NCBI RefSeq assembly: GCF_964340395.1
Contig: NC_135549.1
Span: 19,032,342 to 19,096,341 of the forward strand
Direction: 5' to 3'
DNA length: 64,000 nt
Origin: Glandiceps talaboti
Taxonomy: Eukaryota > Hemichordata > Enteropneusta > Spengelidae
Of this stretch, positions 15,936-45,672 are shown one piece after another. Under the pieces are notes generated by a model. That model ran no database searches. It was not told where the DNA came from and was given only the letters and a program-made list of their open reading frames with translations. How positions within the stretch are numbered: position 1 is the stretch's first letter; the number at the start of each line of letters is the position of its first letter. The translations under genes were made by a program, and so were the position numbers.

Positions 15936-16145
15936 ATGTCAGTCTCTATTTTCCTTGACCTTGTAGTTCTTACAGTACTTGTTGGTTTCATCTATATGGG
16001 CAAGAAGAAACATTCCAAATGGCGATTATCGAGTCGAAAGAGTCGGATGATATTGTTCACCAGATACCCTGTTCCCGGGGTCTGCAAAACTCATTTGATA
16101 ACTGAACTTGGAGAGACTGGTGCCGCTCAACTTCAACACGTCATG
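15936..16145 (+). CDS. First coding exon of the glycosyltransferase fusion: membrane anchor plus DUF2064 start
   Basis: Seventy codons in phase 0 end at a consensus donor (ATG|gtacgt). Residues 5-22 are hydrophobic and are followed by a run of Lys/Arg, which fits a type II signal anchor. The conserved DUF2064 opening is clear (FTRYPVPG), but the usual KTRL arginine is His (KTHLI). No continuation of this domain was recognised before 21064. Confidence 0.75.
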
Positions 16146-16206
16146 GTACGTGTTATCATATAAATCATGATATGGTGCATGGCGTTTAATTTGTTACTGA
16201 AGGCCA

Positions 16207-16356
16207 GGTTACACGATGCAACTCAACTAGCAACGCACCATGCAATTCGTCGCATGCGACGAATTGCATCGTGTACTCGCCCCGTCGCAGAGTCTTGCGA
16301 CGTCGCAAGGTGCGTCGCAAGTTGCTTCTCGAGTTGCTTCGTGACACCGTGTAACC
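16207..16356. mobile_element. 150-bp MITE, family 3
   Basis: Ends ggttacacgatgcaac and gtgacaccgtgtaacc are imperfect inverted repeats. The interior holds a 28-bp palindrome at 16241-16268 and GTCGCA-rich sequence, much more GC-rich than the flanks. It lies in the first intron of the glycosyltransferase gene. Confidence 0.7.
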
Positions 16357-18645
16357 ACTTCGTCGCGTCGCAAGTAATAACCTTTGACATATACCTACGT
16401 GTCAAATGACGTTCAATGTTATGGCCGCCATGTTTTTAGTATAAGAATATTGTATTTCAGCAAGTATTTTTTTTAATTTCGATTTATCGCCACGATTACC
16501 ACTGTCAGTGTTCTCAGGATTTTGTCACAAGAGGGGGGGGGGATTCTTGCTGAGCGGAGCGAATCACTGCGTGCGCATTTCGCACGGTGTGGGTGGTCAG
16601 GAGGGGGGGGGGGTTCCCCCTACTGCCTAGGAGCTTTTGAAATTTGCATCTTGAAATGGTGGCTTTTGGTGGCACTTTTTTAGCCATTTTAACCCATTTT
16701 AATCATGTGAATTTCAATACAACTGCAGTGTCAAAGTGAGTTTTGATATCTTGATGTTCAAATAGTGACAATTTACCTGTCAAAATAATTAGTTTTTTAA
16801 TAGTTTGTCCTAAATAGTTACTCAAATAGCTCTTTTCAACACAAATGCTGAAAGAGTGTAACAAAACAAAATCTTCAACTTTCTGTAAAAAATTGCAGCA
16901 AATTTCAAAATATTTCAAGACAGTTGTAGTGTTTACTACAAAATGAAATCCATTTTCAAAAGCTTCATTGCATCATCACTACCAAAACAAACAAAAGTCC
17001 AACACATAAGGGTGAAGATAACTTTGCCTTTATGCATAACAGCTGAGTAACCTGTCTCACTTCTCATGTCTTTGTAATTTCCCCATTGATGATTGCTTGT
17101 TCAAAGTCAAAAGTGTCAGATTTGGTCCATCTATTGATATTCCCATAGTGATTCAATTAGTCTAAATATACTGTTTTCTAGTTGACTTCTCATTAAATTT
17201 ATCATTTAATTCCCGGATTTGAGAACTGCTCAGAATAACGGACCAGTATTCGCGGTGACGCAAAATCATGCGTATTATACGCAATGGAAATTATTTTTAC
17301 GCATATTTGATCGAACGATCCGTATCCTATACGCAACGAATTTTGTTACATTTGCCATGCCCCATCGACGGCGATATGGCATCGTACTGAGTGAGAGTCG
17401 ATTGTTTTTATTTTGATATATAATATTATTATAGACCACTAACGAGCTTGTACCCTGGCCCTGTTACAATCAATGTAAAAAAAAAGACGCAACACTAATG
17501 TTGCGATTTTTGTTGCCATTGTTGTGTCTAACTGGAAAATTACTAGTACATGCCAAACACAGCTGCACAGGTTCAAATGGACACTCAACACGTCACGCTC
17601 CCACGTCAAAGAACTCACACTGTAAGACATGCCTAGCCATGATATAGTTATCTTCAGCATGTTCATTTTTTTTTTTACAAAAACAAAAATAGTCGGAGAC
17701 AATACGGCATGGCACCTTCAGTTAGCACAGGCCTTTTTTGAAAGAAGACGAAACCGCTTCGTGTCACTGTATGGGTGGTAATAAAGTCAATCAAAAGAAA
17801 ATGAAATAAAACGAATCGGAATATATACATAGTTTTCAAGATGGACAGGTATCCGACAAAACTTTCTGCTACGACTACTCACTAAGATTTTGAAAGGTCA
17901 AAGATTGTACTGTGGCGACACATGCAACTTCCGAACTATTAAACTAAAGGGAAGGGATAGAGGGGGAACTTAGCGTTCAACTTCAATACTGACGTAGCCA
18001 TGGAAAATCTTACTTGCGTGTTTTTTATTAAGAGAAACAATTCATAGACACAGCGACTTTGAAAACCATAGATTTTGGAGTACATTTAGTGTACACGTAA
18101 AAACAGACCGTTCCGAGACTTTTGTCACGGCCACCTATCCATGAACTGTGGACTCGCCCACATTGACACCACGTGTTTATCTTGTCTTCAAGTGAAGCCT
18201 TCTCACCCGATATCTCTGTAAGTTCGATCGTGGTTCGATGAGTACGAAAACATTAGTCCATTTTCGTTTCGATTACAATTCAATAGTAAAGAACTAGAAT
18301 GTACCATTTTGTTCATTTTAGTGACATTTTATTTAGTATCATCTAAGTAGTGTCGGTGAACAACACGACCCTTTCAAAGTCCCGGTTCAAAGTTTCACAT
18401 TTCATTTTGTTTTTGTACCGTAAACACGAGACAGTGTGTGTTTGCAAACAATCCAGCGATCTGAGTTCAAGTTCGCCCTGAAAAGAGCCGACGTGGAAAA
18501 TATTCCGTGTACCTCCTGATCTTCGTTGAGCTAAATGTCGGAGGAAAGACATGTTGACTGTTTGAAAGCTATATAGAATGAATGACAAGTTTGAAAAAAT
18601 TATGCGTGAATGTGACTCGCACGAAGTTTGACATTACACGTAGTA
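16357..18645 (+). other. Intronic stretch where DUF2064 core exons were expected but not found
   Basis: I looked for the DUF2064 core motifs (GDLGERM-like, G(T/S)DCP-like, DGGY-like) on the plus strand and saw none. G-rich runs lie at 16531-16542 and 16601-16612. Confidence 0.45.
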
Positions 18646-18840
18646 TAGCTGCAATAATTGTATTGTAGCGTCTTGCTGCGGTTTTGAAGGTTTTTTCGTC
18701 TGTTTTGGTGACTTTTTAAGTTTTAGTGTTTAACCCGCACCTAACGTTAGGTGCGGGTTAAACACTTAAACTTTAAAAGTCACCAAAACCGACGACGAAG
18801 CCCTCAAAACCGCAGCAAGACGCTACAATTATTGCAGCTA
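18646..18840. mobile_element. 195-bp near-perfect palindromic MITE with target duplication
   Basis: Ends TAGCTGCAATAATTG and CAATTATTGCAGCTA; the arms pair almost fully to the centre at cctaacgttagg. The sequence tacacgtagta flanks both sides (18635-18645 and 18841-18851), which reads as an 11-bp target site duplication. Confidence 0.85.
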
Positions 18841-19104
18841 TACACGTAGTAGCCTCTTTACCGAGATATTTGACTTTCCAAAATGGCGAAACCGCGAGAG
18901 AAAAAAAATTGTTTTGCCCCGTTTGTTGAAAAAATATTCAATTCATTTTTTTCGTCAAAACTTACAAGGGAGCGCCAAGAATTTACAAGAGGGCGCGGCG
19001 CCCCTTTTACCTTGTTAAGGGAGAACATATTGATAAGCTCCCTAACTGGACGTTCATGAAGTATGCATCACTGCACCCGGGAAGGGGAGGTTATGTTATG
19101 CTTC

Positions 19105-19108
19105 TGTA

Positions 19109-19151
<43 letters not shown>

Positions 19152-19153
19152 AT
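19105..19153. repeat. (CTGT)n microsatellite
   Basis: Twelve or so units with a gtatgtgtgcatctgtctgt tail. It precedes a 150-bp type repeat, as at 5151, 20300, 31016 and 40670. Confidence 0.95.
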
Positions 19154-19159
19154 GTGTGC

Positions 19160-19570
19160 ATCTGTCTGTGGACACAATATCTATTATTGAGAGAGATCCA
19201 TGATCGATTCTGATGAAACTTACTACATCTTCCATATGGATTTTGGTAAACATCCAATGCACATTAATTAGTCATTTCCATATATATAATTAATGGTTTT
19301 TAGACTATACCTTTGAAATGTATACTTCAAATTCAATATAATTTGGTACATACGTTAACTATGACAAAGCGCATATATCCTATAGAGTGTGTTGATCATG
19401 TTTATCTTGAAAGTTTGATGAATAATTTGCATAAGTAATGATTATTGGTAATTAGGCTATATCTTAAGAATACATAGTTCAAACTCAATGTAATTTAATT
19501 GTACATTAACCACAACAAAGCACAAATGTCCCATAAACGTTGTTGATGATTGTTAAATATTGACACCAGT
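19160..19570. repeat. Dispersed tandem family 'cttcaaattcaatataatttggtacata' (about 2 units)
   Basis: Units of about 150 bp share ttaggctatat.t.aagaat, cttcaaattcaatataattt and acaaagcgcatatatcctat. Other members are at 27440-28080, 31440-31720 and 41100-41380. Confidence 0.75.
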
Positions 19571-19579
19571 TCAATGCAA

Positions 19580-20308
19580 ACATGTAATCATGTGATTCAA
19601 TAAGCTAAATATTACTACAAAAGAGGATGGACGATATGATAAAAAACACCGTACTGGTAGTTCAGTAGTAGACTGTTATTCTATTTAAATATCAGTAATT
19701 CCACATGTATTAATTCTACATTGTATTCTACATGCTGTACCGTAAAACCTGGAATGGTTTTAATAGGAAATCACCATTTCAAAGCTGTCCCCGCAAGTAC
19801 CCTGTTCCGAATATGTGTGCATGCATTGTTAAATTCAGTTACGATATAGGGTGGTATGGCATACAAATTTATACATATATTCAAATTTTCTGTATACAAG
19901 CATCTGTCAATGAAAGTACCCCACCTTACTGACTTGGCAGAAGGCAGATTGTGAAAACAAGTAATAGGGCAGCAAAAAGGCTGGCCTAGATGAATTCAAA
20001 AAACACAAAGAAATGTGAACAAGTGTCAAAGACATCAAGTCATGGAGATTCCCTTAAAGATATACAATATAGGGAAGGCAAAGAGTGGATAGAGAATGAA
20101 CTGGATAGGCTAAAAGTTGTGGTTGAGTACACAGAGATATGAACTGGAATGACTGGCAGGAAATATTGAATCATGGGTGCAAGGTCATGACCTCAAAACA
20201 AAGCTACATGACAGATTGGCCACTAGAGGTCCCCCTACTGTTAGCTAGCAATTGCATATCGTGCATCCCAGGCTGAGTCTATCTGTCTGTGGTGTGTGTG
20301 TGTGTGTG

Positions 20309-20353
<45 letters not shown>

Positions 20354-21063
20354 GCCTGCCGATCTGTCTCACTTTTCTAAAAAAAAAAACAGCTGGCTCA
20401 ATTCAAACAAAATTTGGTGTATGTAAATTTGAATATGATTGGGTAAATGTATGTAAATTTGAATAATTTCATTTCAAAAACCATTAAACCTGTTCCACTA
20501 CATACTTTCAGATTTCTTATAGTTTGGGACCGTGACCTTTTGCCAAATGAAGGGTATATCATGAACTATAGCCAAAATCTTTGCATTCCAGCAGTTATGT
20601 GGAGGAACAAAAACCTCAAAACTACCCTTACAGAAGGCATTCAGTTTAAATCTGGTTTGTTTTGGTGTAGTACTAGTGTTGGTCAAAACATTTGGCAGCT
20701 CATCTCTGGACCATTTCAATATTTAAACTATCTGTAGCAGCCATATATGCTGCATGTGGATCCCATCAGGCACAGTATCCATATCACTGGTTTGATCACT
20801 GCCTCAAAATGGCACACAAAGTGCATGCAAAATATACCATTAAACACATTCTTTGGTGATCAGTGCAGTCTTTTTCGACAAGTCCTTTACACTAGTGAAC
20901 GTTGTGGTAAAAAAACTATTAATAACTCCGTGTTTCAAAGCTAAGTGAACATAAAACTATTTGATGAGGATTTTCTACAAATGTATATTTGCTATGTTTT
21001 GCACACATTTCAGATGTGAACATGACTGTGTTTACCTGGTACTTGTGTTTCCTTATCTTGTAG
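19580..21063 (+). other. Intronic stretch with a (GT)n(CTGT)n tract
   Basis: Microsatellite at 20288-20355 followed by aacagctggctcaattcaaacaaaatttgg, a motif shared with 27463, 31446 and 41113. Open frames at 20447-20737 have no domain. No exon of the glycosyltransferase gene found. Confidence 0.45.
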
Positions 21064-23695
21064 GACCGTAAAGAAGACTTGCCTGTTATAACAGAAGCCA
21101 TTGCTATCACCAAAGCACAAATACTAACACCTAAACTTAGCGTTATCATACCAGCATTGAATGAAGTTAGGAACATCAATAAGACACTTAATGCAGTGTT
21201 ACAGGTATCATATTTTCCTGTTACCATAATTGTTTCATCTTAATCTTCATATATACTGTCCAGTGGTGTTTCAGTATATCAATACTATACTTACATGTGG
21301 ATACATATGTCACTAACTGTATATTTCCTTAGGGCATAATATTGATTGGAAAACATTTTAAAACTTGCTTGAGAGGGCAACACCATGCAAGGAAAATGAA
21401 CGTATGAAGAGTCATTTCATGATTTCACATGACGTAAATCGCGCACGATTACCAAAAGCACCAGATTGAAGCTCTATTTCACCTTCATTGTACTAGCAGT
21501 GGTGCACTGTTACCTCATGAGAATTAGCATGTGTATGTATTACATTTAATGAGGAAAAGTCACCAACCTTAAGTGCTTATTACCTTCTGATATTGATAAA
21601 TAGTCATGAATATTGATTGTTTAATTCATATGAAATCATGAAATAACACCATGGAACCCAAAGTTTATTAAAATACATTTATTTCCTGGAGCAGAGTCCC
21701 CTGTTGTGATATCTTTAGCCTTTGATTCTTTTCTTTCTGAGCAAGATATAGACCCATAGCTTAAAAGCAGCTTTAAATGAACTTCATTAATATAAATTGT
21801 ACTTCATAAAGCATTAACAATGAACCAAGGATGAATTTGACAGGTTCTGTACTAGTGTGTGTAAAGTCAAAAATCACTATACCAGATTACTTTGGTTTAG
21901 TGGCCATGTTTTTTAGTTTGTCTGCTTGGTAAATATTCAAATCAAACTGTGCAAACTATAGGAATGGGGATTTGGTGAAAACATCTACACTCAATAAACT
22001 ACTGGCATATATATATCTGAAATTTGATGGGACATATTTTATGGCATTCCTACATGACACCATTGGAGATATGACACCATTGATAACTAACATGTTCTGA
22101 TTCATTTGAACTTCATAAAGACATATCCTGTGATACATAAGCTTACCAGGTAATTTTGTATGTGGTTATAATAAAACGTTTCTTTTGTGTTCAGAAATGT
22201 AGTTGGCCTGAATACATGGAGATACTGGTCTGTGATGGTGGTAGTGATGATGGGACAATTGAGACAGTTGAAGAGATGGCTCGTTCAGAACCAAGATCTC
22301 CTATGAGACTTGTCAATTGCCAAAGAGGTAGCAAGCCAAATTAAAATAAACAATAAATAAAATGGGTGTTACTTAGTTTGAAAGGCTACAATATTACCAA
22401 TTTTATTTAAAAACTTTTTTTTTCAGATTTGAATTACACTAAAATGCTGTTGATTTTTGCGATCAAATCATGAACAGGGTTACAATTTGAGACATATATT
22501 CACAGTTGTTTTTCAGTTATTTTGATCATATTGTGAAACATGATCATGATGTTTCTAGTAAAAGCGTTTTATTTAATTGCATCTGTTGTAGTCTGAATCG
22601 TATGCCCAAAAATGTGCCTCTCTATACATTCTTTTGATAATGAATTGAATGGTCACAGTATTCTCTCACTAATCTTTCATGATCACTATGAATTTCAATT
22701 TAAAATGCAAAAATAGAGCTATTTTTGTCCATAACAGAAGTGACATAGAAAATAATACCCTACAATAACAAGAAATATATACAAAATAATTCATAAAATA
22801 ATACAGAAACATAATTTGAGCCAAACGATTGATTTGTTAAAGCAATTATTTCAAGGTACTACTCGGTCCATCGACCAATGACAAAATGTTGAAGATGGGA
22901 GTAGTGTTTACAGAAACATTTAAAGTTTGATGCACCTGTTAAAGAGTCATGAACACAAAACCTGTCTTTAAATTTTAATATGAATTGTGTGTTTACATAT
23001 TAATTTGAATTTGCATTTTACATAGAAAGAATACCCATTAGCACACTAAATCAAATGCTGTTAATGTTCTGTTACTAGTAGAGCAATTTTCGGTTGAAAA
23101 CTCATTTGATAGATATTATTTTTTTAGATGGTGAATATTGATGTACAATTTTTCCTTTCTGGTAGGGAGAGGCAAACAGCAAGAGACTGGAGTTCATCAG
23201 AGTAGTGGAGATTTACTTCTCTTCCTCCATGCTGATACCACCTTACCAGATAACTACTTTGAACACATTCTTATGACCCTAGGAACACCTGGTGTGTCTG
23301 CAGGGGCATTTCAGTTTGATGTCGATACACTCCATTCTGATAGGTAAGAAACAAAGAAGACACATCTTGACATTTGACAAACATCAGCCTGTCTGTTATG
23401 ATGTTGACCCAACTTTCCAGTATATCTTGCACATATTAGCATGTGTGTATCACTGCCACCACAAACAATTTTACCAACAGCCATTTCTATGAGGTATATA
23501 AGATTATTAGCAGAGAAGGAGTACACGTAACAAGAAATTGCAATTAAAAACATTTTCACTTTAATTTAATTATAGTAATGGTTCAGTAGTTATTTGTAAA
23601 ATGTGTTTCTTGCTTCCTCAGTTATATTCCTAGACGGTTGTATTGGACATTAAAATTGATTAGATGGGGAGCTCACATCAGAAGCAAATACCTTG
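21064..23695 (+). CDS. GT2 domain, first half (four exons)
   Basis: Exons 21064-21204, 22195-22327, 23166-23343 and 23622-23695 join in frame (phases 0, 1, 2) with GT/AG borders. They encode the end of DUF2064 (DRKEDLP), the nucleotide-sugar binding strand LSVIIPALNE, the DGGSDDGT motif, the RGKQQETG segment that corresponds to bacterial GRARQMN, the acidic HAD motif of FLHADTTLP, and the SAGAFQF strand. The final exon gives an amphipathic Arg/Trp-rich segment ending SKYL, continuing into FPYGDQALF. This part has no internal damage. Confidence 0.85.
21205..22194 (+). other. Intron of the glycosyltransferase gene
   Basis: Donor cag|gtatca and acceptor tgttcag|aaatgt. Unique-looking AT-rich sequence, nothing else seen. 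Confidence 0.6.
22328..23165 (+). other. Intron of the glycosyltransferase gene
   Basis: Donor gag|gtagca, a weaker site, and acceptor ctggtag|ggagag. No repeat recognised. Confidence 0.55.
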
Positions 23696-23919
23696 GTAAG
23701 TTTAATTGAATGATTGAATACATGTACTACATTTTTATACACCTACATTAGTTTAAATCGAAGGGGTGGGGGTGTATCTCAGATTCACTTTGGATAACTT
23801 TTATAAACTAAACATGTCAAAATTAACAAATTAAGGACATGATTGTGTGTATTCATAGCGCTATTACAAGGACAGGGAATGTCTGATTTTATGTATTCCT
23901 GTTTTGCTTTGTTTTTTAG

Positions 23920-24880
23920 TCACCTTTGGGGACTTGGATGTTGGATTCCGTCCGTCCGTCCGTCCATCCATGCGTTCACCATCATATCTCTGGCATGCAC
24001 CACGAACCAATTTTAACCAAACCTTGCATAAAGGTAACATACTCTGTGAGACATATGCACACCACTTTGTTTTAAGGACTGACTCAAATATGGCTGAATG
24101 GCAACCATATATTTGTTGTTAAATTTCACGATATGCATCATAACTTTGGAGGTATAATACATAGTGACTCCATTCAAGTGCTTACACCAATATTATCAAA
24201 TATGAGCTTTCTTTTAAGACCTTTGACCTTGAAGTATTTTTCAAGGTCAAATAGCCAAATCTGGGTCATCTTCATAGCTTTTTGAATAATATATTTGAAG
24301 AGATATTTTAATCATGTCTTTGTTTTTACTATGTGAGGCATGTGCAGGTCCCTTAATTTCATGACCTTGACCTGAATATCAAAATTGTAGTCATGTTTGT
24401 GATAAACAAACACATTTCGCCTGTTATTGCTAAACGTTTGATACATATAGACACCATTCAAGTGTCTACCCTTACATTATTAATGATGAGGTCTCTAATG
24501 AAACTTTGACCTGTGACCTTTCAAGATGAAATGACCAAACATTTTTCTTTCTATGTAAACTCAAGAAGTTGAATAAACAAAGACTCCATTTAAACGTCTA
24601 TACCACAAAGGACAGCAGCTTTCTTTTCATATCTTGACCTTTGCCTTTGATTGCCCATATTCAAGGTCAAATAGCAAATTGGTCAATAAATTATGAAGGT
24701 TTGTACTCTTGAGACACCATTCAGATTTATGTGATAACTTTGCCACAAAACATACAAGTTGGGACTATGTCTTCGATTGAAAGCTTGTCAAATTTCATAA
24801 TAGCACTTGTCGTAGACAAAGCCGTTTCTTGTGAAGAAATTCAACCTTGCCATTTACCTAGCAATGAATAAATCGAGGTT
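23920..24880. repeat. 'cctttgaccttgaaggtcaa' dispersed element headed by (CCGT)n
   Basis: Begins gtcacctttggggacttgg and tccgtccgtccgtcc, then three to four decayed 190-250 bp units with ccattcaagtgtctac and tgacctt...caaggtcaaatagccaaat. Related pieces lie at 2940-3300, 27180-27420 (reverse) and 28960-29060. Confidence 0.75.
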
Positions 24881-25011
24881 TGTATATATTACAAAGTATT
24901 AAAATTAAACCTCTGAAAGATGGCATCTATTCTTCCAACATTACATCCAGAATCATGCAAAACTTTGAAAAAAATGGCAACATATTATTTTGTGCACTTG
25001 TTTTTCAATAG

Positions 25012-25095
25012 AATTTCCATATGGAGATCAAGCTTTATTCATGACAAGACAAAGGTGGCTTTCCGCCTTTTCCACTTATGGAAGATTATTACTTG
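25012..25095 (+). pseudogene. GT2 exon with an internal frame change
   Basis: Entered in the frame set by the previous exon, this exon reads EFPYGDQALFMTRQ. The 3' part makes sense only in another frame, where it reads GGFPPFPLMEDYYL and passes in phase 0 to VKQLKKEG at 28371. TIGR04283 proteins normally have about nine residues between the ALF and GGF motifs; only four or five fit here. An indel not divisible by three, near 25052-25060, is therefore likely. In the inherited frame the mRNA would stop soon after the next junction. Confidence 0.8.
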
Positions 25096-25864
25096 GTGAG
25101 TTAACATTACTTGATGGTTATTATGTCTACAAACATTTTTTCCACCATAGAATATAGTTATATATGCTTTAATAAAGAAATTCTCTGTGATAGTATTATT
25201 GAACTTCCCAACATGACCATGTTGTTCATTGGTTTCAGCCCTGGGTCACCAATGAGACTTTGCAGGTTAGTCCACAACATACCATGTTATTTGCAATGAT
25301 GTAAACTGGGAAGGGTAGGCAAGTGAATAAACATTCTGAAAATGTATGCAAATATACCAAGCAACAAGACCACACCCATAGCTACAACGCCATTGGCACT
25401 ATTTTAACGTCATAAAATTTGGCAAAATTGCAGCCTTTTGCAGTTTTGTACAGATCTTAGGAGCCCATAACTATCTGGGTTGAAAGTTCTGGTATCAAAT
25501 ATTAGATCTCACCAGATCTTGCAGTCCATGCATAACATGACATGTACATTGCCAAATATGCATATATAAGTCACAGATCTTGATGTGGCTGGGCCAGATG
25601 AGAGAAAAGTAACAAGTATACATGTTTTTATTCACACTTTCACTGCAGACATAACCCACATACATTGTTATGCGAGCATAAAGTAGGGCAATGATGTAGG
25701 AATTGGCTAGTTTTAATCTACCTACCTTATTTATTTCTTGTCTATATTGTTGTTAATGATGCTGTTTTAAAAGGTGCTCAACTAAGTACAACAGCACAAT
25801 TAAAACAAACCACAGTATACAAAACATAAAGATAACATTCAAGTCTTAATAGAAGACATACATG

Positions 25865-26285
25865 TAGACCGACTCCCTATAGCATAGTAGTTAGCACACA
25901 GGCTTAGCAGTCGGGAGGTCGAAGCCCACTAGAAAAAGGGGATTTTTCTGTGACCGACCAAAATCAAACACAGGATGAGTGTTCTACAGACTCAATGGGT
26001 AGGCTGCATCACTCAGTTGTGTCTCACTCACAAGATGAGTGCGAATTTGGAAGGACTCCTGGAGTAATAACTCGAAAAGTCGGGGACCATTACTCACACA
26101 GAGCCCACATGTGCTATGTTTGCCGGGTCTGGGTGATTCCGGAATAGCCTGTGGACTGATTGGGAAAGCCTTGACAATTCCACAGCAAGGTGATATAGAG
26201 CGTCCAACAAAGCCCTGTCACAAAGTCCCAAACTTGAATAACAGAAAAACACTGGGAGCAATTCCCAGCACAACATTTTTTTAAA
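25865..26285 (+). mobile_element. tRNA-derived SINE-like element
   Basis: Starts with a tRNA-like head: an A-box-like tagcatagtagttagcac and a B-box-like gaggtcgaagcc. A body with two atgagtg segments follows. It is not a functional tRNA, since the arms do not fold completely. Confidence 0.5.
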
Positions 26286-26734
26286 AAACAGAATAAAAAG
26301 ACATACATGTATCCCCCTCAACTAGACACTTTCTCAATGTATTAACGTTTTTGAGGTAATTGGTAAATCATGCCATTGAGTAAAAAGTGATATGAGCACC
26401 AAAAGTAATGCATGTATATGTTTATCTGGGTCTGCACTATCTATAGACATGATCTGAAAGACATTAGCCACACATAATTGCTACAGAATGTCTATATCAA
26501 GAATGTCAATATCTAAGTATTAGCTTAATTGTGCTGGTCTTTGAATAGAATCTATGATTGAAGTTGTGTTTACTACAAATGTGGCTGCCAATCAGTAAAA
26601 TTTATACAAGTCATTGAAAATGACATAGTCCCTGCTATGATTGGGTTTTAAGGAACTGGCAGTTTATGTTGTCATTTTCAAACCTGGTTAATGTTGTTTG
26701 GCCTCATATGGTTGTTTTTGATATCACTACTCTG

Positions 26735-27115
26735 TTCAAGCATGTCTGGGTTATGGCTTTGGACATGAAAACTGCGCCAACAAAATGGCTGCCAGGCAGC
26801 CATATTGGATCGTATCACAACAACAATGAATATGCACGTGTATGTCATATAACACTGTCCTAATACCAACTTTGAATGAGATCTGTTCAAGCATGTCTGA
26901 GTTATGGCTTTGGACAGGGAAAATTCGCAAAATAATGGCTGCCAGGCAGCCATATTGGATCGTATCATAAAACAAATTGACGTGCATATGTATGCCATAG
27001 TATGTTGCCCCTGTACCAAGTTTGAAAAAAATCGGTCCAGGCATCTCCAAGAAACTGCTCTGGACGGTCGGACGTACGCACAGACAGACACACGGACTTC
27101 GTCCGGCGAGGACTA
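26735..27115 (-). repeat. Reversed copy of the 150-bp 'catgtccaaagccataactcag' family
   Basis: Read on the minus strand it begins ttagtcctcgccggacgaag, then a short (CTGT/CGTC) tract, and two units ending with the gcctggcagccat motif. It matches the arrays at 45942-46330 and 55735-56900. Confidence 0.85.
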
Positions 27116-27439
27116 ATAAGCACCTAAATTAATGCTTGTGTATAGTTCCTTTCTTCAATATTACTTGTAAACATGATTTAAAAGAAATTGGCAATATGTG
27201 AAAACTATGATATGTCTGTGATAGGTAGAAATTGGCTTGATTTTGATAATTAGCCCTGAAGGTCAAGGTCCAGGTCAAAGGTCAAGATATCCAAAGATAG
27301 CAAGGTCTCAAAAGATAGCTTGATCTGATAATATGGGGTAGACACTCGAATGGAGTTTCTGCGTATTACAGTTTTTTCCTTCCGTAAGAGCAGGTATTCA
27401 AACGGTGATGTCGGTCTGTGTCTGTCTGTCTGTGTCAAT

Positions 27440-28130
27440 ATTTTCTTAACAACAGCTGGCTCAATTATACTGAAATTTGGTACATATAATGTTTTGGGTG
27501 ATGGCTAGACCTGAATATTTTTTGAGCGAGATCTGTTCATGTTAATTAGTGAAATTTGCATATCAATGAAATCAACTAATCATGCAATATCTTATGACTT
27601 CAGACTTCAATTTCAATATACGTTAACCATAACAAATCCCATATGTCCTATACAGGTTGTTGATGTATCTTACAATGTTAATTATTTGCATTATTAGTTA
27701 TTTTGGGGTTATTTGGCTATATCTGTATAAGACTGCATTCCTCAATTTCAATATAATTTACTACATACATTAAACTTTGTTCCATACATCCTATAAAGTT
27801 TGTTTATGTACCTTACAGTGTTAATGAATTAAATGCATTTCAATATCATTTAATACATACGTAACCATAACAAAGCAGATATCTCTAATAAATTTGGTAT
27901 ATTTTACAGTTTTAATGAAAAATTTGCATAATTAATTATTTTAGGTACCTAGGCTGTTTCTTAAAAATGCAAACTTCAAATTTCATATAATATGGTACAT
28001 ATATATCAATCATAATAAATACACACCTATCCTGTGACATTTGTTGATACAACTGTTAATCTGGTTTAGTTATGCAGTAAATATTGATTTTTATCTACAA
28101 ACATGGCCAAAATGTGGTCAGATTTGCATA
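27440..28130. repeat. Tandem 150-bp AT-rich family, four decayed units
   Basis: Repeated elements are ttcaatttcaatata, accataacaaa.c.catatgtcctata, gttgatgtatcttacagtgttaat and ttgcattattagttatttt. Headed by tgtgtctgtctgtctgtg and aacagctggctcaatt, as for the other copies. Confidence 0.75.
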
Positions 28131-28370
28131 TATGAAAGAACAACTTGACGTGTTTGTGTCACACATGATATGTCAGGTTTAAAGAAATCAGATATTGCAT
28201 GTCTTAGAAATGACGTATTACAGGTGGATGCACGGATGGATGCACAGACGGACAGATGGAGCATAGCACCCCTTTCAGGGGCTAAAAATAGCCACTATCA
28301 TGAGGTTTTAATCCTATTGAAGATGGGATAACGTGCTAAACATCGGTCTTTAATCATTATCTATTCATAG

Positions 28371-28832
28371 GTAAAACAGCTTAAGAAAGAAGGACATGTC
28401 AAAGTAGTAGAGAGTCCAGTCCTTACATCTGCCATTCGATGGGAGGAGAATGGTTACCTGGTATGTACAAAAACCATTTGATGTTTACTTTAAAAGTTTT
28501 ACTTACTCTGTCCTTGCAGTTTAGGCTGATGTAGGGGAAATATTCCAACAACTTGAAACTGTATCATTATTGAATAGTAAGCGGTGCTATGTGCCAATGA
28601 CCCAATTTAATGACAATGACAATTTTCATACCATGAAAGTATTTAAAAATATTCCTCATGATGAAGCTTCTCTGTATATATGTTACTACTATAACAGCTT
28701 TTCTCTCTTCTGTCATAACAGAATACAATTCGAACTATGGCCATAATTCTTGCCTACCAGATGGGTGTTAAGCCTTCAACACTTGCTACTTGGTACTATG
28801 GTAACAAGGCTTATGAGAAAAAAGACAAGTAA
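28371..28832 (+). CDS. Terminal two exons of the glycosyltransferase gene, copy A
   Basis: Exon 28371-28460 encodes VKQLKKEGHVKVVESP and SAIRWEENGYL; exon 28722-28832 encodes NTIRTMAIILAYQMG, a hydrophobic helix, and ends AYEKKDK-stop. Both are phase 0 and correspond to the C-terminal part of TIGR04283 enzymes. The stop lies about 730 bp from the stop of the convergent minus-strand sulfotransferase gene. The pair is the left end of the duplicated segment. Confidence 0.85.
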
Positions 28833-29564
28833 CTATAGAGACAAGGATACATGAATTGAGAATAGAGATTAGTTTTCCAACATATAATACAGAAGAGAAA
28901 TATAGACAAGCATTACTTTTAGTGATCATATCCTGTTTTTAGTGAATGACAGGAGTAAACATCAATGATTTAGACATAAAGACTTACTTCAAGTGTACAC
29001 TCCTTTATTATCAGGGCCAATCTTTCTTTTAGGATCTTAACCGTTTTACGTGACCTTGACTTTTGGGGTCATTTAACAAAATCAAGCAACTTTCTTGCAT
29101 ACTGTATACTTTGTGATATTTAAGTGTGATAAATTTCTTCAAAATCTTGTCGAAAGGTGATACAGAACACAAGAAACACACACCTGCATCGTGGGAATTA
29201 TTGGCAGAAAATCCACCATTTTTATCTATTAAAAAAATCTGATTTTCGGTGTTTTTAAAAATGGTGCTATCGAATGATCATTTAATTTTGTTTGCCCGAG
29301 TGGTAGATGTGGTAGATTTCATTATCCCTAGTGATAATTAAACATGCCTACACATGAAGTCTCAATACAAGCTTAAGTCAATATTGTCACTAAATAATAC
29401 TAAATAATCTCCGCAGCCCTTTTAAACGCAGCTGTTATTCATTTAAGTAAATTTCTTAGTAAAATGTTTTCAAAACATGACATCATGACTTTCTGATACC
29501 TTCTACCTTTAAGCGATTTATATTACAAAAAGAAATCAGTCACAACTTAAACAGTTGTGAAGAT

Positions 29565-30715
29565 TTACTGGAGTTTAGCTGGTTTGAAATTAATATCAAC
29601 ACCTTCCATTCTCTTCTTGTATAATTCATCAAGTCGTTCACTTTGAGCCACAGTGAACACATTCCTCCAGTCTCCGACAACACCTATAGGATGGTACATA
29701 CAAGGAAAGACTTTCAGTAATCTTAAATGGAAATGCCAATTGTTATATTTTATTGATATTTAGGTATTATTCTTCAATATTTTTCTTCGTTCAACCAAGG
29801 ACAATACTCGTGACCTAAGTGGGCTTTGCCATTACAAGTCGCTAGACGAGAGTATTTTCGAGTATTATAGAGTATTTTTCTGCTGGATGAAAAAAAATAA
29901 ACGATAACAATTTTCCCAGCGCAAGTAATGGCAGTATTGAACGTTTTGACTCATATTTCGAACACAGCAGAAGCAGTGACGTAGACACATGCTGTTGTGA
30001 CATAGACACTAGATGTCATGACATAGAGCGACCAGAGTATATATATTCCATATTTTCTGTTCAACTTGGCTCGTACATGATCTAATTTACTGATATATTT
30101 CTTTCATTTCCTTGTTGAGTGTACATACATATTCTTAAATGTTTGTTTGTGTAAAAAAAAAACAATTTAGCCAGTTGATTCCATGTGGTTGAAATATTTT
30201 CTTTAAGATGAGTACTTACTGGGATTTAGGCTTGATGCCTCGGAAATATATTACTTATCCACATACAACGTACCCACACATACACGCATATAAGTGAATG
30301 TGATTAGAGTTATAATGTACATCTCACCCTTTCGGAGTAATGGCGTTGACTCTGAAATAGCTCTTTTGTTTAACTGGGGATTGTCTCTCATCTTATCGAA
30401 TCCACACAATTCTGTTATCTCCTCCAGCTTTTTCGACGATAACATGGTGGGAAGTAAGAAGTTGGCGATCTTTGAAATATTACCGTTAAGATCCTGTAAA
30501 ATAATAAGCAATAACTTTGAACTCACATTGGAAAAGCCTGGCCTTTTAAAAATTTGTAATGTTATGTGTGTCTGTTTGTCTGCATGTGGATACAATATCT
30601 CAATGAAACTTGACACCTTTGTATCAAAAAGTGATGGCATCAGGCCACATATGTCCTGTAATATGAAGGAGTTCATATATATTTATATATTACATATATG
30701 ATGTGTGTGTACATT

Positions 30716-30758
<43 letters not shown>

Positions 30759-33532
30759 CATATTCAACACTCACAAGCACTCTTCAGATTCTATTGACAA
30801 CTGTGACAGTCTATTACCAATGACTTCCTGTTCTTGAGTTACAAATATATGGACTTGGTCTAAAATTGTGTCACATAATATTTTCATGCAGCAAACCAGT
30901 AATTTAACAGTTATTTCACTCATTCAAAGTTTTAAAAAAAACATTTGATATCCACATGTCCTCTTCAGCACAACTGAACTGATACGGTTTAGTAGTGCTA
31001 TAAACATGGTAAAGTGTCTGTCTGTCTGTCTGTCCGTCTGTCTGTGTCTGTAAACAACTTAAGGTGAACCAGACTTAAACTGAATGCCTCCTGTAAGGGA
31101 ATCACTAATTATGCAAATAACTCATTAAACTAAAACAACTATGGTAACAGGTTTTTTTGGACGCGCATGCTTTCTTCAATAGGTTAATGTATGTGCGAAA
31201 TTATACGGAATTTGAAGAGTGCATGATACTGCTTAATTACTGAATATCGTTCATTATTCAAAATACTCATTAAAGGTAAAAGTTTTAGCAACACACTTCA
31301 TAGGACAGGTGCGTATTATTGTGGTTGATATATGTACCATATTATACGAAATTGGAAGCATGCATTTTTTCTTCCATAAGGAAGAGATGTATTAGTGGGT
31401 GAAAGTCTGTGTGTGTGTCTGTTTGTGTCATCGTTTTCTTCAAAACAGCTGGCTCAATTCAAGGAAAACTTTGACGACGTACACCGTAGGGTAATGGCAA
31501 GAACTGATTAGGTTTTGGTAAACATTCCATGAATACTAATGAGCAATTTGTGTAATTAGTGGTTTTCAGTAATTAGGCTATATATCAAGAATGCACGCTT
31601 CAAATTCAATATAATTTGATACATATATTTGCAATACCTAAGCACATCTGTCCTGAAAATAGTATTGATGTAGCTGTCACTTTTAATAAGTTATTGGCAT
31701 ATTTCAGTAATTAGATGTGGTGGCCACAAAAAAGAAAAGCATTGTTTCTCATCAGGAAATGTCTAAATTCGATGCACCATTGGCGCTATTCTTAAGTTTG
31801 ACATAATCTTTGATGGCGGTGTGTACCTGGATGATATCTTCAAACCTTAATACCATCACGTGTTCATCTTGACTATGACGTAACCAACCTTTGGTGTGAT
31901 CAAACCATGACCCAAAGGTAACTGGAAATAAAGAGACAATCTTATTATTGAAGAAAATGATTATGGTCTGGTACAGGTACTAGGTGATGATGATGAAAAA
32001 ATAAAGGTACATGATGGTTCATAAATGTGTTCGTAAGTAAACTCGGTTTTCCATTTCCTAGTTGGGATAGATGTCGCCAGTGAGAAATATACCACTTTTT
32101 CAGTGTACTCCGTTTATACCCAATTTAATTTGCAAACGATATTAGAGAGTGGATCATCGCATACACTATTCACTATAGTCTATTAACACACATCTAAAAT
32201 TCCGCGGTACATCACCAGCTTGCCATTCTTGATTTTGAAACTAAATAAGATAAGAGTTTTGTAAAATTTCTAGCGCGTTTATTCCACTTACCAGAAACAG
32301 CTATTATTTGAAAGTGTTCATAATTATGACTATTAGTATATTTTAGGACAATTTAAATCCAAAAATTCGAATTATAGTATAAAAATGTCGAGGAAATCTC
32401 TGCAATGAGATTAGCTGTTGTTCATTGCCATACGACAATTGCAACTGCCATACATAGCATGCACATGAACAATTCTAGAATATTTTGAGTGAGTTTCTAT
32501 ATCAGTATTTGTACTTCTGAATCAGTGAAAAGCTATAAAGTCAACTTGTGCCCCTTGAACTTATCCCTTACCTTCCCCTTCCATAAAATCTTCAAGAAAG
32601 TCACCAAACGTATCATCAGTACCAAACACCTCGTTAAAGTTAAAATTAGAAACCGCGACGTCTTTAGGATTTCGAACAACATATAATATCTGGAAAATAA
32701 TGGAAAAAGTTTGGCCGATCTCTTGCACTCTAGGCCAAAAGGCTGTAAAATATAATGTTTGTAATGTGGCTGACATCACTAGCAATAGTACATGTTAAGA
32801 CATTCAAATTGACAATAAGAATAAGTTGACACTGAAGGGAAGATAACTAACTGAAGAAGTTATAGAAAAATGGAAATTACTTACATACTAGATGCTACTT
32901 TGTGACGACCGACCAGGGAATTTAATAAGTTACGGACATTTGGGTTCTATTCTTTCACACTTTTTTCAAGTAGAAAGCATGGTGTATTAAAGTTTTAAAA
33001 AATACTGAATTCTCTCAGATGAAGCACCTACATCCTGAGGTAGGCATACATAGGAATATATAAACAGACATACTGTCAGTTAGGCAGCTACACAGACACA
33101 GACATTATAGTACAATGTACTGACAATATTGAAATGGGAACCTTTGGCAAATCCTACAATAAACATGTTTACCTTTGGCTTCTTTTCAAACACCTGTTTT
33201 GGGATTAATTCCAGAGGTAAATGAGTTTTTATTAGTCGTGGGGACCTCATGGAGTCTAGATACATGAAGTTTGGTTTGTCTTTGTTGGGTCGTGATACTT
33301 CCAAAAACGGAAACATATCATGAAGATTTGTCTTCACAGTTGATTCTAGATCGCCATGATTCATAACAAGGCGAACAATATGCTGGCTTAGTGTTGTTCC
33401 TTGACAAGAGAGAAAGGAGTACAGTTATACACAAATTCAAGAGGAAAACCGCAAACTTCAAATCCTAATACATAAATCTCATGACATAACATATGTACCT
33501 ACCTACATACACATGTACACACACACACACAC

Positions 33533-35628: not shown

Positions 35629-37189
35629 TTTACTACACAATCGGGTGATGTCACAATAGTCAGTTCTCCCTGCTGGTGTAAATACATACAATTTTGTCAA
35701 GTAACAATTTCCAGAACTTTGTCACGAGATTTTGAATGAAGTGTCACAGATGACATATTCATAATATTAGTAAATTCAATATTTTAACTACATTGCAAGA
35801 CCTACTTAGACTGAAAGGTCACCAGACCCTCGCAGGGATTCAGATCACACAGGATTCCAAGCGTACTCGAGTAAATGAGACGACAGTCTGCATTTCACAA
35901 ATAGCTAGAATTCACTCTGGAATTCATAGTGATCATTTATCAATGTTCCCTGAGAATAGTCTTTTAGGGCATGGTAACACCTCTTGAAGACTTTAATAAA
36001 TTGATGTCAGTTTCCGCACCCACTATTTCTTGAGAGACTTCCTCAATTTTTGCGATTTTATTATTTTTTTCTCGAATACGTAAACAAAAGTTTATAGTCG
36101 GAAGTGAAAAGGCATGTGGGGTCGGGTAACCGGAACCAAACAATTATTTTTATTAGGCCTTATCAACACCGAAGAAGACGAGCCCTCCCTCGCCCCTTAA
36201 CTATATTATTTTTGCTACAGGATTTGACCTAAACGTCAAACAACCAAAATAAACACAGAACACAATCAAACAACACTAACTGAAAGATTATTACAAAAGT
36301 GTGTAAATCGCAAAATTTTGTATTGTGTTAAAGTATCTGGTGAAGCCAAGTTTTGAATGTTTCCAGCGGTCTCTACTGCACTTATATCCGATATAATAAG
36401 TATACGGGCAGAATTAGGCCATCTCACCCTCGCTAGACTACTAAAGTACACACTGTCTCTGAGTCATCTCTTGCCAGAATAGGTGACGATAAAGTGCACA
36501 CAGATACTGAGATAACAGTGTACACATGTACACATTCGGACGGGCAGCCTGTGGGCACACACATAGCAAGGAGGTTTAAAAATCCGTGTACACAACATGC
36601 ACTCCCCGGGTTCATGCAACCCATAACCAAAAGAAGCCCAATCGGTCTACAAAATCGACAGGGGTTTGTGAATGTGATTAAGGCCTGTGTTTTCCAATGT
36701 TTACTGTTTCTTTTGAACTGTATCAGTTATGCCCTCTCCCAATTCAACGAGACTTACCTGGAAGTTGAAGTTTGATAGGTCTTCTTACTTATTACACGTA
36801 GAGATCGCGTGAGATTGTACTGCGCATGACTTGTTTGTGTAGCCTCAGTCGTCAAACTTAAAAGGTCGAGAAAGTGCGGCACTCCCAGTTCACAACATAC
36901 CAGATGTAAACTGAATGTCTTCCGTAAGGGCAAAGTTTTGAGATTGTAATAAGTTATTTTTTCTCATTGATTGCTATTTGCAACTTGACGTGTATGTGTC
37001 ACACATGATATGTCAGGTTTCAAATAAAAGAAATCGGCTATTGCATGTCTAAGAAATGACGTATTACAGGTGGATGGCTGCACGGACGGACGAAGGAGCA
37101 TAGCACCACTTCCTTCATGAGGTTTTAATCCTATTGAAGATGGGATAACGCGTGCTAAACATCGGTCTATAATCATTATCTATTCATAG

Positions 37190-37671
37190 GTAAAACAGTT
37201 TAAGAAAGAAGGTCATGTCAAAGTAGTAGAGAGTCCAGTCCTTACATCTGCCATTCGATGGGAGGAGAATGGTTACCTGGTATGTACAGAAACCATTTGA
37301 AGCTTACTCAAACAGTTTTACTTACTCTGTCCTTGCAACACTCAAGGCCTTAGCACAGCTTAGGCCAATGTAGAGAAAATATTCCAACAACTTGAAACTG
37401 TATCATTATTGACTAGTAAGCAATGCCATGTGCCAATGACCCAATTTAATGACAATGACAATTTTCATACCATGAATGTATTTAAAAATATTCCTCATGA
37501 TGAAGCTTCTCTGTATATACGTTACTACTATAAGAGCTTTTCTCTCTTCTGTCATAACAGAATACAATTCGAAGTATGTCCATCATTCTTGCCTACCAGA
37601 TGGGTGTTAAGCCTTCAACACTTGCCACTTGGTACTATGGTAACAAGGCTTATGAGAAAAAAGACAAGTAA
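37190..37671 (+). pseudogene. Orphan duplicate of the glycosyltransferase terminal exons, copy B
   Basis: Exons 37190-37279 and 37561-37671 repeat the last two exons at 28371-28832 with the same lengths, phases and splice sites, and no stop or frameshift. Differences include L to F (VKQFKKEG) and RTMAII to RSMSII. No upstream exons accompany them, so they are fragments carried along by the segmental duplication. Because both phases are 0 and the acceptor is intact, they could serve as alternative terminal exons of a long transcript. No evidence of use is visible. Confidence 0.8.
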
Positions 37672-38044
37672 CTATAGAGACAAGGATCTAGGATACATGA
37701 ATTGAGAATAGAGATTGGTTTTCCGACATTTAATTCTCGAATACTGTATACTTTGTGATATTTAAGTGTAATAAATTTCTCGAAAATCGTGTTGAAAGGT
37801 GATACAGAACACAAGAAAGACACACCCTAATAGTGTTGCTGTTTGATATACCACTTCTTATTCAATGGTAGTAATTATTGGCAGAATATCCACCATTTTT
37901 ATTTATTAAAAAAATATAATTTTGGGTGTATTTAAAAATGGTGCTATCGAATGATCATTGATTTTGTTTGCCTGAGTGCGATGTGATAGATTTCATTATC
38001 CCTAGTGATACTTATACATGCCTACTACATGTAGTCTCAATACA

Positions 38045-38505
38045 AAGTCATTAGCCATCTGGGTTCATCTCTTTCCCTTATGGAATTTTCCTAGACAATA
38101 TTGTTAGTCCCAGGCAACAAGCAACTCATTGAGGTTACGTTGTGGGCAATACCCAAATTAAACAGGTATAAAACACATCAAATATAAAACAGTTGATGAA
38201 ACAATTACAACTGTAAAAAGATTATCGAGAAAATGTCTAAACTGCATGAAATAATAAATACTTTATTGATCCCACAGGGGTAATTGGGAAGGAACTGTTG
38301 CTCAAACTACAGGCTTGACTAAAGTACAAATAATGGGTACTGAATGGGAGCAACTGAAAAGGGTTATTTGTGGGATACATACTTTCAGAGAGGCTCTATA
38401 TAAATACTTTGTCGGTGGTACAGATTTTCGACAGCAGGTGAATTTTTACAAATTATTTTGAATTATTCCAAATATAATGTATGATTTCATGTTATAAAAA
38501 TATTG
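38045..38505. mobile_element. Insertion in copy B, LINE/SINE 3'-end-like
   Basis: Absent from copy A between ctcaatacaa and atattgtcact. It holds aataaatactttattgatcccacagggg, a motif common at 3' ends of LINE/SINE elements read in reverse. No reading frame. Confidence 0.6.
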
Positions 38506-38633
38506 TCACTAAATAATACTATATAATCTCTGTAACCCTTTTAAACGCAACTGTTATTCATTTAAGTAAATTTCTTAGTAAAATGTTTTCAAAACATAAT
38601 CATGACTTTTTGGTACCTTCTACCTTTAAGCGA

Positions 38634-38639
38634 TTTATT
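38634..38639 (-). terminator. Poly(A) signal of sulfotransferase copy B
   Basis: AATAAA on the minus strand, 44 nt past the stop codon. The matching site of copy A (about 29515-29523) reads AATATAAA. Confidence 0.55.
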
Positions 38640-38682
38640 TTACAAAAAGAAACCAGTCACAACTAAAAACAGTTGTGAAGAT

Positions 38683-45672
<6,990 letters not shown>

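Follow-up and report, generated by a model that had tools for sequence, protein, structure and literature searches.

Animals probably keep an arsenosugar-type pathway linked to the radical S-adenosylmethionine (SAM) protein ArsS, in which the last enzyme would be a bifunctional, membrane-anchored fusion of a nucleotidyltransferase-like DUF2064 domain (family TIGR04282) with a GT2 glycosyltransferase domain (family TIGR04283); judged from sequence, this reading is given a probability of roughly 0.6. The gene from which it arose lies in a stretch of 64,000 nucleotides (the window) at C1:19032342-19096341 of the 590-Mb assembly of the hemichordate Glandiceps talaboti, and is itself a decayed paralogue. 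Through this decayed copy, an enzyme conserved among animals and an ArsS gene in an animal genome came to light, and together they make a strong and testable case for a pathway of the arsenosugar type.

A Fused Transferase in Animals

The intact paralogue is found at C1:23784351-23793258, 4.7 Mb from the window copy, and is composed of 11 exons with GT-AG introns that encode a protein of 518 amino acids. This protein scores 166.7 bits against TIGR04282 and 209.4 bits against TIGR04283, above the respective cut-offs of 134 and 182. A preliminary description of the window had proposed a gene fusing these two modules; the proposal holds for the intact paralogue and fails for the window copy, which is frameshifted and has no DUF2064 core. 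In the NCBI model of the intact gene (P0001, LOC144434634), exon 1 with its anchor and FTRYPVPG motif is missed and the protein begins from other exons; the 11-exon GT-AG model replaces it here.

Five of six further animal proteins that were scanned exceed both family cut-offs, and the remaining one, from Crassostrea, passes that of TIGR04282 (166.8 bits) while falling two bits short of that of TIGR04283 (180). Among the matches listed, at least 34 named animals (one of them a hybrid) carry both Pfam domains, PF09837 and PF00535, in agreement with the spliced animal fusion first suggested from the window. These animals include hemichordates, echinoderms, amphioxus, molluscs, an annelid, a brachiopod, nemerteans and the sponge Sycon, which we take to represent eight phyla. 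No cnidarian, arthropod, nematode or vertebrate name occurs in the best 120 rows of each protein search, which drew on at most about 8000 candidates and in which many rows are nameless.

The animal fusion is predicted to carry an N-terminal membrane anchor, a feature that had also been anticipated. The AlphaFold model of the Ptychodera orthologue places an N-terminal helix at residues 10-40, and 17 of the 27 rows that are animal or unplaced have a strong N-terminal hydrophobic window, vs 4 of 37 bacterial rows. A motif change that had seemed specific to animals, GSDIP rather than GTDCP, was dropped, as the consensus of 12 bacterial fusions likewise reads GSDIP.

The closest known relatives are the bacterial TIGR04282-TIGR04283 fusions (annotated "rSAM/selenodomain-associated transferase 2/1"; for example, P0026 of Phormidium tenue and P0141 of Desulfobacterales), which join the same families in the same order and are about 40% identical to the animal fusions. 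In P0026, the one bacterial row tested, both domains exceed the curated cut-offs. Unlike these bacterial proteins, the animal form has introns, carries the predicted anchor in most rows and stands apart in phylogenetic trees, and the window copy is without most of the first domain. Some bacterial proteins of about 670-690 amino acids (P0137, P0139, P0147, P0186 and others) carry the DUF2064-GT2 pair together with about 220 further residues. Also among the closest known systems are 3cgx and the 3-phospho-D-glycerate guanylyltransferase 7p97, presumably an enzyme of the CofC type. The chondroitin polymerase K4CP (2z86) resembles the fusion in having two GT-A type domains in one chain, both of which we assume to be glycosyltransferases. 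No solved structure was matched jointly by both halves of the fusion, the K4CP structures (2z86, 2z87) giving root mean square deviations of 17-18.

ArsS and a Probable Link to Arsenic

The gene set of Glandiceps extends beyond the fusion. The preliminary description had named an ArsS-like (TIGR04167) gene in the same genome as something to look for, and such a gene is present. A genome search with TIGR04167 returned six ordered matches at C18:14274790-14279771, and seven GT-AG exons at C18:14274050-14279783 join to a piece of 390 amino acids, without the exon bearing the start codon, that scores 411.3 bits against the family (cut-off 300), covers positions 2-302 of 303 and shares 49% identity with an ArsS from a planctomycete. 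The second modelled exon contains CNQACNHC, which fits CxxxCxxC, presumably the cluster motif of ArsS. In a 10-row tree of ArsS proteins, the animal sequence is placed without support. For ArsS as the arsenosugar biosynthesis radical SAM protein, PMC12159101 cites Cheng et al. 2021. The literature covered, all of it under open licence, yielded no report of ArsS or of the TIGR04282/TIGR04283 fusion in animals. For an arsenite methyltransferase, two pairs of exon matches were found, on C6 and C22, with no single exon above the NF008823 cut-off; one of the exons matches the solved arsenite methyltransferase 8xt7 (E 5.5e-23).

A link between the two transferase families and arsenic was sought in bacterial genomes. 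In the examined flanks of 80 bacterial loci, an ArsM-like open reading frame (ORF) occurs at five and a TIGR04169-like ORF at four. Seven neighbour proteins were checked against NCBIfam as representatives: two of the three ArsS ORFs scanned lie above the cut-off of 300 and that of L049 below it (249), and the single ArsM-like ORF scanned (L020) reaches 339, the cut-off of its top family being 500. A flavoprotein resembling MerA or dihydrolipoamide dehydrogenase is found beside 10 of the 80 loci, one more than ArsS (L022, L024, L031, L032, L041, L042, L053, L066, L068 and L069). As sole proof of a link to arsenic, the neighbourhood is too weak and was set aside, though many of the contigs are short; co-occurrence across whole genomes was therefore used.

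For the genome-wide search, 50 of the 80 loci were picked by hand, mostly those with both domains in one ORF. ArsS above the cut-off was found in 33 of these 50 genomes and, among 14 controls, in one. Of 98 genomes drawn evenly from the cyanobacteria, the phylum of Phormidium (L015), 40 have ArsS, 39 have TIGR04283 and 39 have TIGR04282. Each transferase set equals the ArsS set minus a single genome, and both transferases are absent from all 58 genomes free of ArsS. With small genomes excluded, 17 cyanobacterial genomes larger than 2.5 Mb are without all three, and ArsS and TIGR04283 are still associated. In the phylum of L019, represented by 99 genomes, TIGR04282 is present in 29 of the 32 with ArsS vs 13 of the 67 without. 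By co-occurrence, ArsS is a strong functional partner for TIGR04282 and TIGR04283.

Several observations weigh against an ArsS-linked pathway in animals. An ArsS-like ORF stands in the examined flank at only 9 of the 80 bacterial loci, and 17 of the 50 locus-bearing genomes are without ArsS above the cut-off, two of them with a fragment only. In the phylum of L019, 13 of the 42 genomes with TIGR04282 have no ArsS. The p-values for co-occurrence, including that of 1e-13 for ArsS and TIGR04283 in the cyanobacteria after removal of small genomes, ignore relatedness and are hence inflated, and the two genome draws include three genomes picked for having the fusion (G007, G036 and G010). Within animals, ArsS was sought, and found, in Glandiceps only, and the genome search there gave no match to the partner protein TIGR04169; this protein is perhaps not obligatory for the pathway, because it is present at only 4 of the 80 bacterial loci. 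Finally, the role in arsenic metabolism is one that we infer for TIGR04282 and TIGR04283, the sources examined describing no arsenic chemistry for either.

Alternatively, the animal fusion could be an ordinary enzyme of glycan or glycolipid synthesis, a nucleotidyltransferase joined to a transferase, from which any arsenic role was lost, with Glandiceps ArsS acting on a separate substrate. In its favour, GT2 and GT-A folds are generic, the GT2 half finds its best structural neighbours among polysaccharide and mannosyl enzymes, and the bacterial pair can occur in genomes that have no ArsS. The animal members mostly bear the record names "uncharacterized" or "hypothetical", and two Branchiostoma rows are named "DPM1". 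Against such an ordinary role stand the near-perfect co-occurrence of ArsS and the transferases in the cyanobacterial draw and the presence of both curated families together with ArsS in Glandiceps, so that this explanation, although a serious one, is judged unlikely.

If an ArsS-linked pathway does operate in Glandiceps, it could proceed in five steps. An arsenite methyltransferase would produce dimethylated arsenic, to which ArsS would add a 5'-deoxyadenosyl group. A nucleoside phosphorylase or nucleosidase would then release an arsenic-bearing ribose phosphate, the DUF2064 domain would join this compound to a nucleotide, and the GT2 domain would move the arsenic sugar onto an acceptor, for instance glycerol phosphate or a lipid. 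With few charges before its helix and many Lys and Arg residues after it, the anchor would hold both domains at a membrane, on its cytosolic side. Genes or exons are shown for steps one and two and for the fusion that would end the pathway; the order, substrates and acceptor given here are proposed.

In its broadest form, the proposal would be that arsenosugars or arsenosugar lipids are produced by marine invertebrates themselves, in several phyla, using an arsenite methyltransferase, a selenocysteine-containing ArsS and the anchored DUF2064-GT2 enzyme. The pathway would have been acquired a single time, before the divergence of the bilaterian phyla and probably that of the sponges. This extension is offered tentatively, at a little less than even odds. 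Arsenosugars in animals are usually attributed to diet. With a candidate gene set in an animal genome, and its last enzyme distributed from sponge to amphioxus, the origin of animal arsenosugars and arsenolipids becomes testable. In most algal genera, arsenosugars are the principal arsenic compounds, according to PMC11228943.

A Candidate Selenoprotein

Glandiceps ArsS is likely to contain selenocysteine (Sec), judging from the end of its coding sequence and an element downstream. The 3' end of the gene reads HCFGCTAGMGSS-TGA-QGVTAQ-TAA, with the in-frame TGA at the column occupied by Sec or Cys in bacteria; three of nine bacterial neighbours (L028, L045 and L049) have TGA at this same column, and the QG that follows in Glandiceps matches a Cys form. 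TIGR04167 is given as a prokaryotic selenoprotein family with the motif GxxU in the review PMC13188914, and also appears among prokaryotic selenoprotein families in the review PMC9312934.

About 1.5 kb downstream of the gene, at C18:14281278, a hairpin resembling a selenocysteine insertion sequence (SECIS) consists of AUGAC, a 10-bp stem, a UAAAC loop and UGAUG, so that AUGA, AAA and UGA are positioned as stated for eukaryotic SECIS elements. Bacterial SECIS elements are described as lying right after the UGA (PMC13188914), whereas the SECIS-like element in Glandiceps is of the eukaryotic type, distant from the codon, and the gene is spliced. Folding of the hairpin gave z scores of -2.6 and -3.2. 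A custom SECIS pattern applied to 25 kb that includes this site found one match on the + strand, which is the hairpin, and one AT-rich site on the - strand. Elsewhere in Glandiceps, 168 kb of strands had no match to the pattern; 1.97 Mb of bacterial strands yielded a single match, and Markov shuffles gave 0.05 matches per 25 kb.

The TGA could instead be a plain stop codon, in which case the protein is not a selenoprotein. Only six codons lie beyond it, and the hairpin scores 26.1 bits against the Rfam model SECIS_1, below the gathering score of 35, and is not among the six matches of a genome-wide RF00031 search in which 150 of 11904 candidates were scored. Yet chance placement of a stop would have to account for its falling on the GxxU column of the TIGR04167 selenoproteins, for the shared TGA and following QG, and for the hairpin with its 10-bp stem and eukaryotic SECIS positions, and a plain stop is considered unlikely. 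With selenocysteine at this codon, animal ArsS would be a selenoprotein family not mentioned in the prokaryote-focused selenoprotein literature examined. A candidate selenoprotein is thereby added to those of animals.

Decay of the Window Copy

The window holds a degenerate paralogue and not a working fusion, because the DUF2064 core is absent and the frame is shifted. Eight exons on the + strand can be joined, with GT-AG at all internal splice sites. Exon 1 (15936..16145) has the start codon, a hydrophobic anchor, a basic stretch and the first 33 or so residues of TIGR04282/DUF2064, including FTRYPVPG. Its resemblance to the opening of that family, which the preliminary description had recognised, is confirmed by a match to profile positions 1-32 of 189 (E 1.7e-6; 28 bits, the cut-off of 134 not being reached), although exon 1 gave no Pfam match; it is 85.5% identical in nucleotides to exon 1 of the intact paralogue. 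The next exon (21064..21204, equivalent to paralogue exon 5; tblastn E 9e-14 to P0001; GT-AG) passes from the end of DUF2064 (DRKEDLP) directly into the start of GT2, just as had been described. It is followed by the equivalents of exon 6 (22195..22327, GT2, with DGGSDDGT; tblastn E 1e-20), exon 7 (23166..23343, GT2, with LFLHADT; E 3e-26) and exon 8 (23622..23695, from tblastn and the exon model).

The equivalent of exon 9 (25012..25095) has the motifs PYGDQ and LMEDY with a frameshifting deletion of 14 nucleotides between them; it measures 84 nucleotides vs 98 in the paralogue, and its halves match in frames 3 and 1 by tblastn. The equivalents of exon 10 (28371..28460) and exon 11, the last (28722..28832, from tblastn and the exon model), complete the gene. 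In the spliced frame, translation stops four codons into the exon-10 equivalent at a TAA (28382-28384), before the remainder of the GT2 domain. There are no Ns in the window. Read across the frameshift, the joined GT2 exons score 167.1 bits against TIGR04283 (E 4.3e-49), below the cut-off of 182; this is by far the top match among the 23 NCBIfam families listed, and the assignment to this GT2 family made earlier stands, no other NCBIfam GT2 family fitting better.

Paralogue exons 2-4, which encode the DUF2064 core (225, 157 and 116 nucleotides; 498 in total, 166 amino acids), are missing from the window copy, with phase preserved. The intron at 16146..21063 (+ strand) contains no credible match to them by tblastn, blastn or profile. 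Six animal homologues used in tblastn (E up to 10, word size 2) gave only chance-level matches to this part of the protein (E > 0.6) and one match to exon 1, reading on through a stop; blastn of the intact paralogue against the window found no exon 2-4 match. A genome-wide TIGR04282 profile search recovered only three paralogue exons and window exon 1, the latter covering positions 1-43 of 189. Hidden DUF2064 exons within the intron were accordingly rejected.

The remaining exons have not drifted freely. Over 302 codons shared with the paralogue, the window copy has no stops, a dS of 0.50 and a ratio of nonsynonymous to synonymous substitution (dN/dS) of 0.33, more constraint than expected of a copy dead since duplication and therefore a point against simple decay. 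By exon, dN/dS is 0.71 in exon 1 and 0.17-0.32 in exons 5-8, 10 and 11, with exon 11 at 0.17. This constraint, together with uniformly canonical splice sites and a loss of 498 nucleotides that lets exon 1 splice in frame to the GT2 exons, would suit a working GT2-only paralogue, in which case the 14-nucleotide deletion could be a rare allele or an error in the assembly, or an alternative acceptor could bypass it. Such a functional copy seems improbable, given the stop ahead of the remaining GT2 domain, the dN/dS of exon 1, and the reading KTH for the KTR of the intact paralogue, whose Arg is nearly invariant across 60 aligned rows (though Diadema has KTQ). Moreover, the only Glandiceps protein in the best 120 from a protein search with the joined window exons comes from the intact paralogue. 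The pattern fits an old duplicate that was constrained for much of its life and broken later. Most likely, to judge from its reading frame, the window copy no longer makes an enzyme, and it is the wrong one to express.

Origin of the Fusion

Phylogenetic trees bear on how the fusion came to be in animals. An 80-row tree was built from 37 ORFs out of the 894 at the 80 bacterial loci (chosen by length and motif filters), 15 proteins from bacteria and 28 rows treated as animal, including P0005 and P0006, which fall among sea urchins. All 28 lie on one side of a branch with a Shimodaira-Hasegawa-like approximate likelihood ratio test (SH-aLRT) value of 100. For an 86-row tree, the rows of L040, L036, L015, L016, P0140, P0126, P0129 and P0005 were removed and 14 rows added; here 31 animal rows together with the unplaced sequences P0219 (EukProt), P0218 and P0210 (lgn) are split from 52 bacterial rows with support of 100/100. 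Inside the animal side, ambulacrarians (100/99), amphioxus (100/100) and lophotrochozoans (100/98) form groups. P0219 and P0218 pair (99/92), and the other 32 rows, including Sycon, unite (96/89), the position of Sycon within them having no support (80/44).

The tree fits a single old acquisition, then descent with losses later on, although, being unrooted, it gives no direction of transfer. The earlier proposal of an old transfer or retention is thus consistent with trees that include the bacterial fusions. Contamination or a symbiont as the source of these bacterial-type genes, an idea prompted by the fact that the non-animal named rows of the protein lists are bacterial, is hardly credible and was rejected, as the fusion and ArsS genes both have GT-AG introns and lie on contigs of 35.9 and 23.8 Mb, and the animal side of the tree is supported. 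P0218 (ENA) and P0219 lie outside the animals in the tree and may indicate the fusion in protists or algae.

Neighbouring Features of the Window

Self-comparison of positions 12000-42000 of the window identified a tandem duplication, 28141-32345 and 36981-42000, with 80-92% identity by piece. Within it lie the two final exons of the fusion gene as well as a portion of a sulfotransferase gene. Second copies of the exon-10 equivalent (37190..37279) and of the last exon (37561..37671) are therefore present on the + strand. The sulfotransferase exons (PF00685) lie beside the fusion gene on the - strand, at 29568-29759, 30254-30682, 33083-33424 and 39422-39796, and are partly duplicated. Within the long first intron of the window gene, about 210 bp at 18638-18847 form their own inverted repeat (88%, blastn), possibly a small mobile element.

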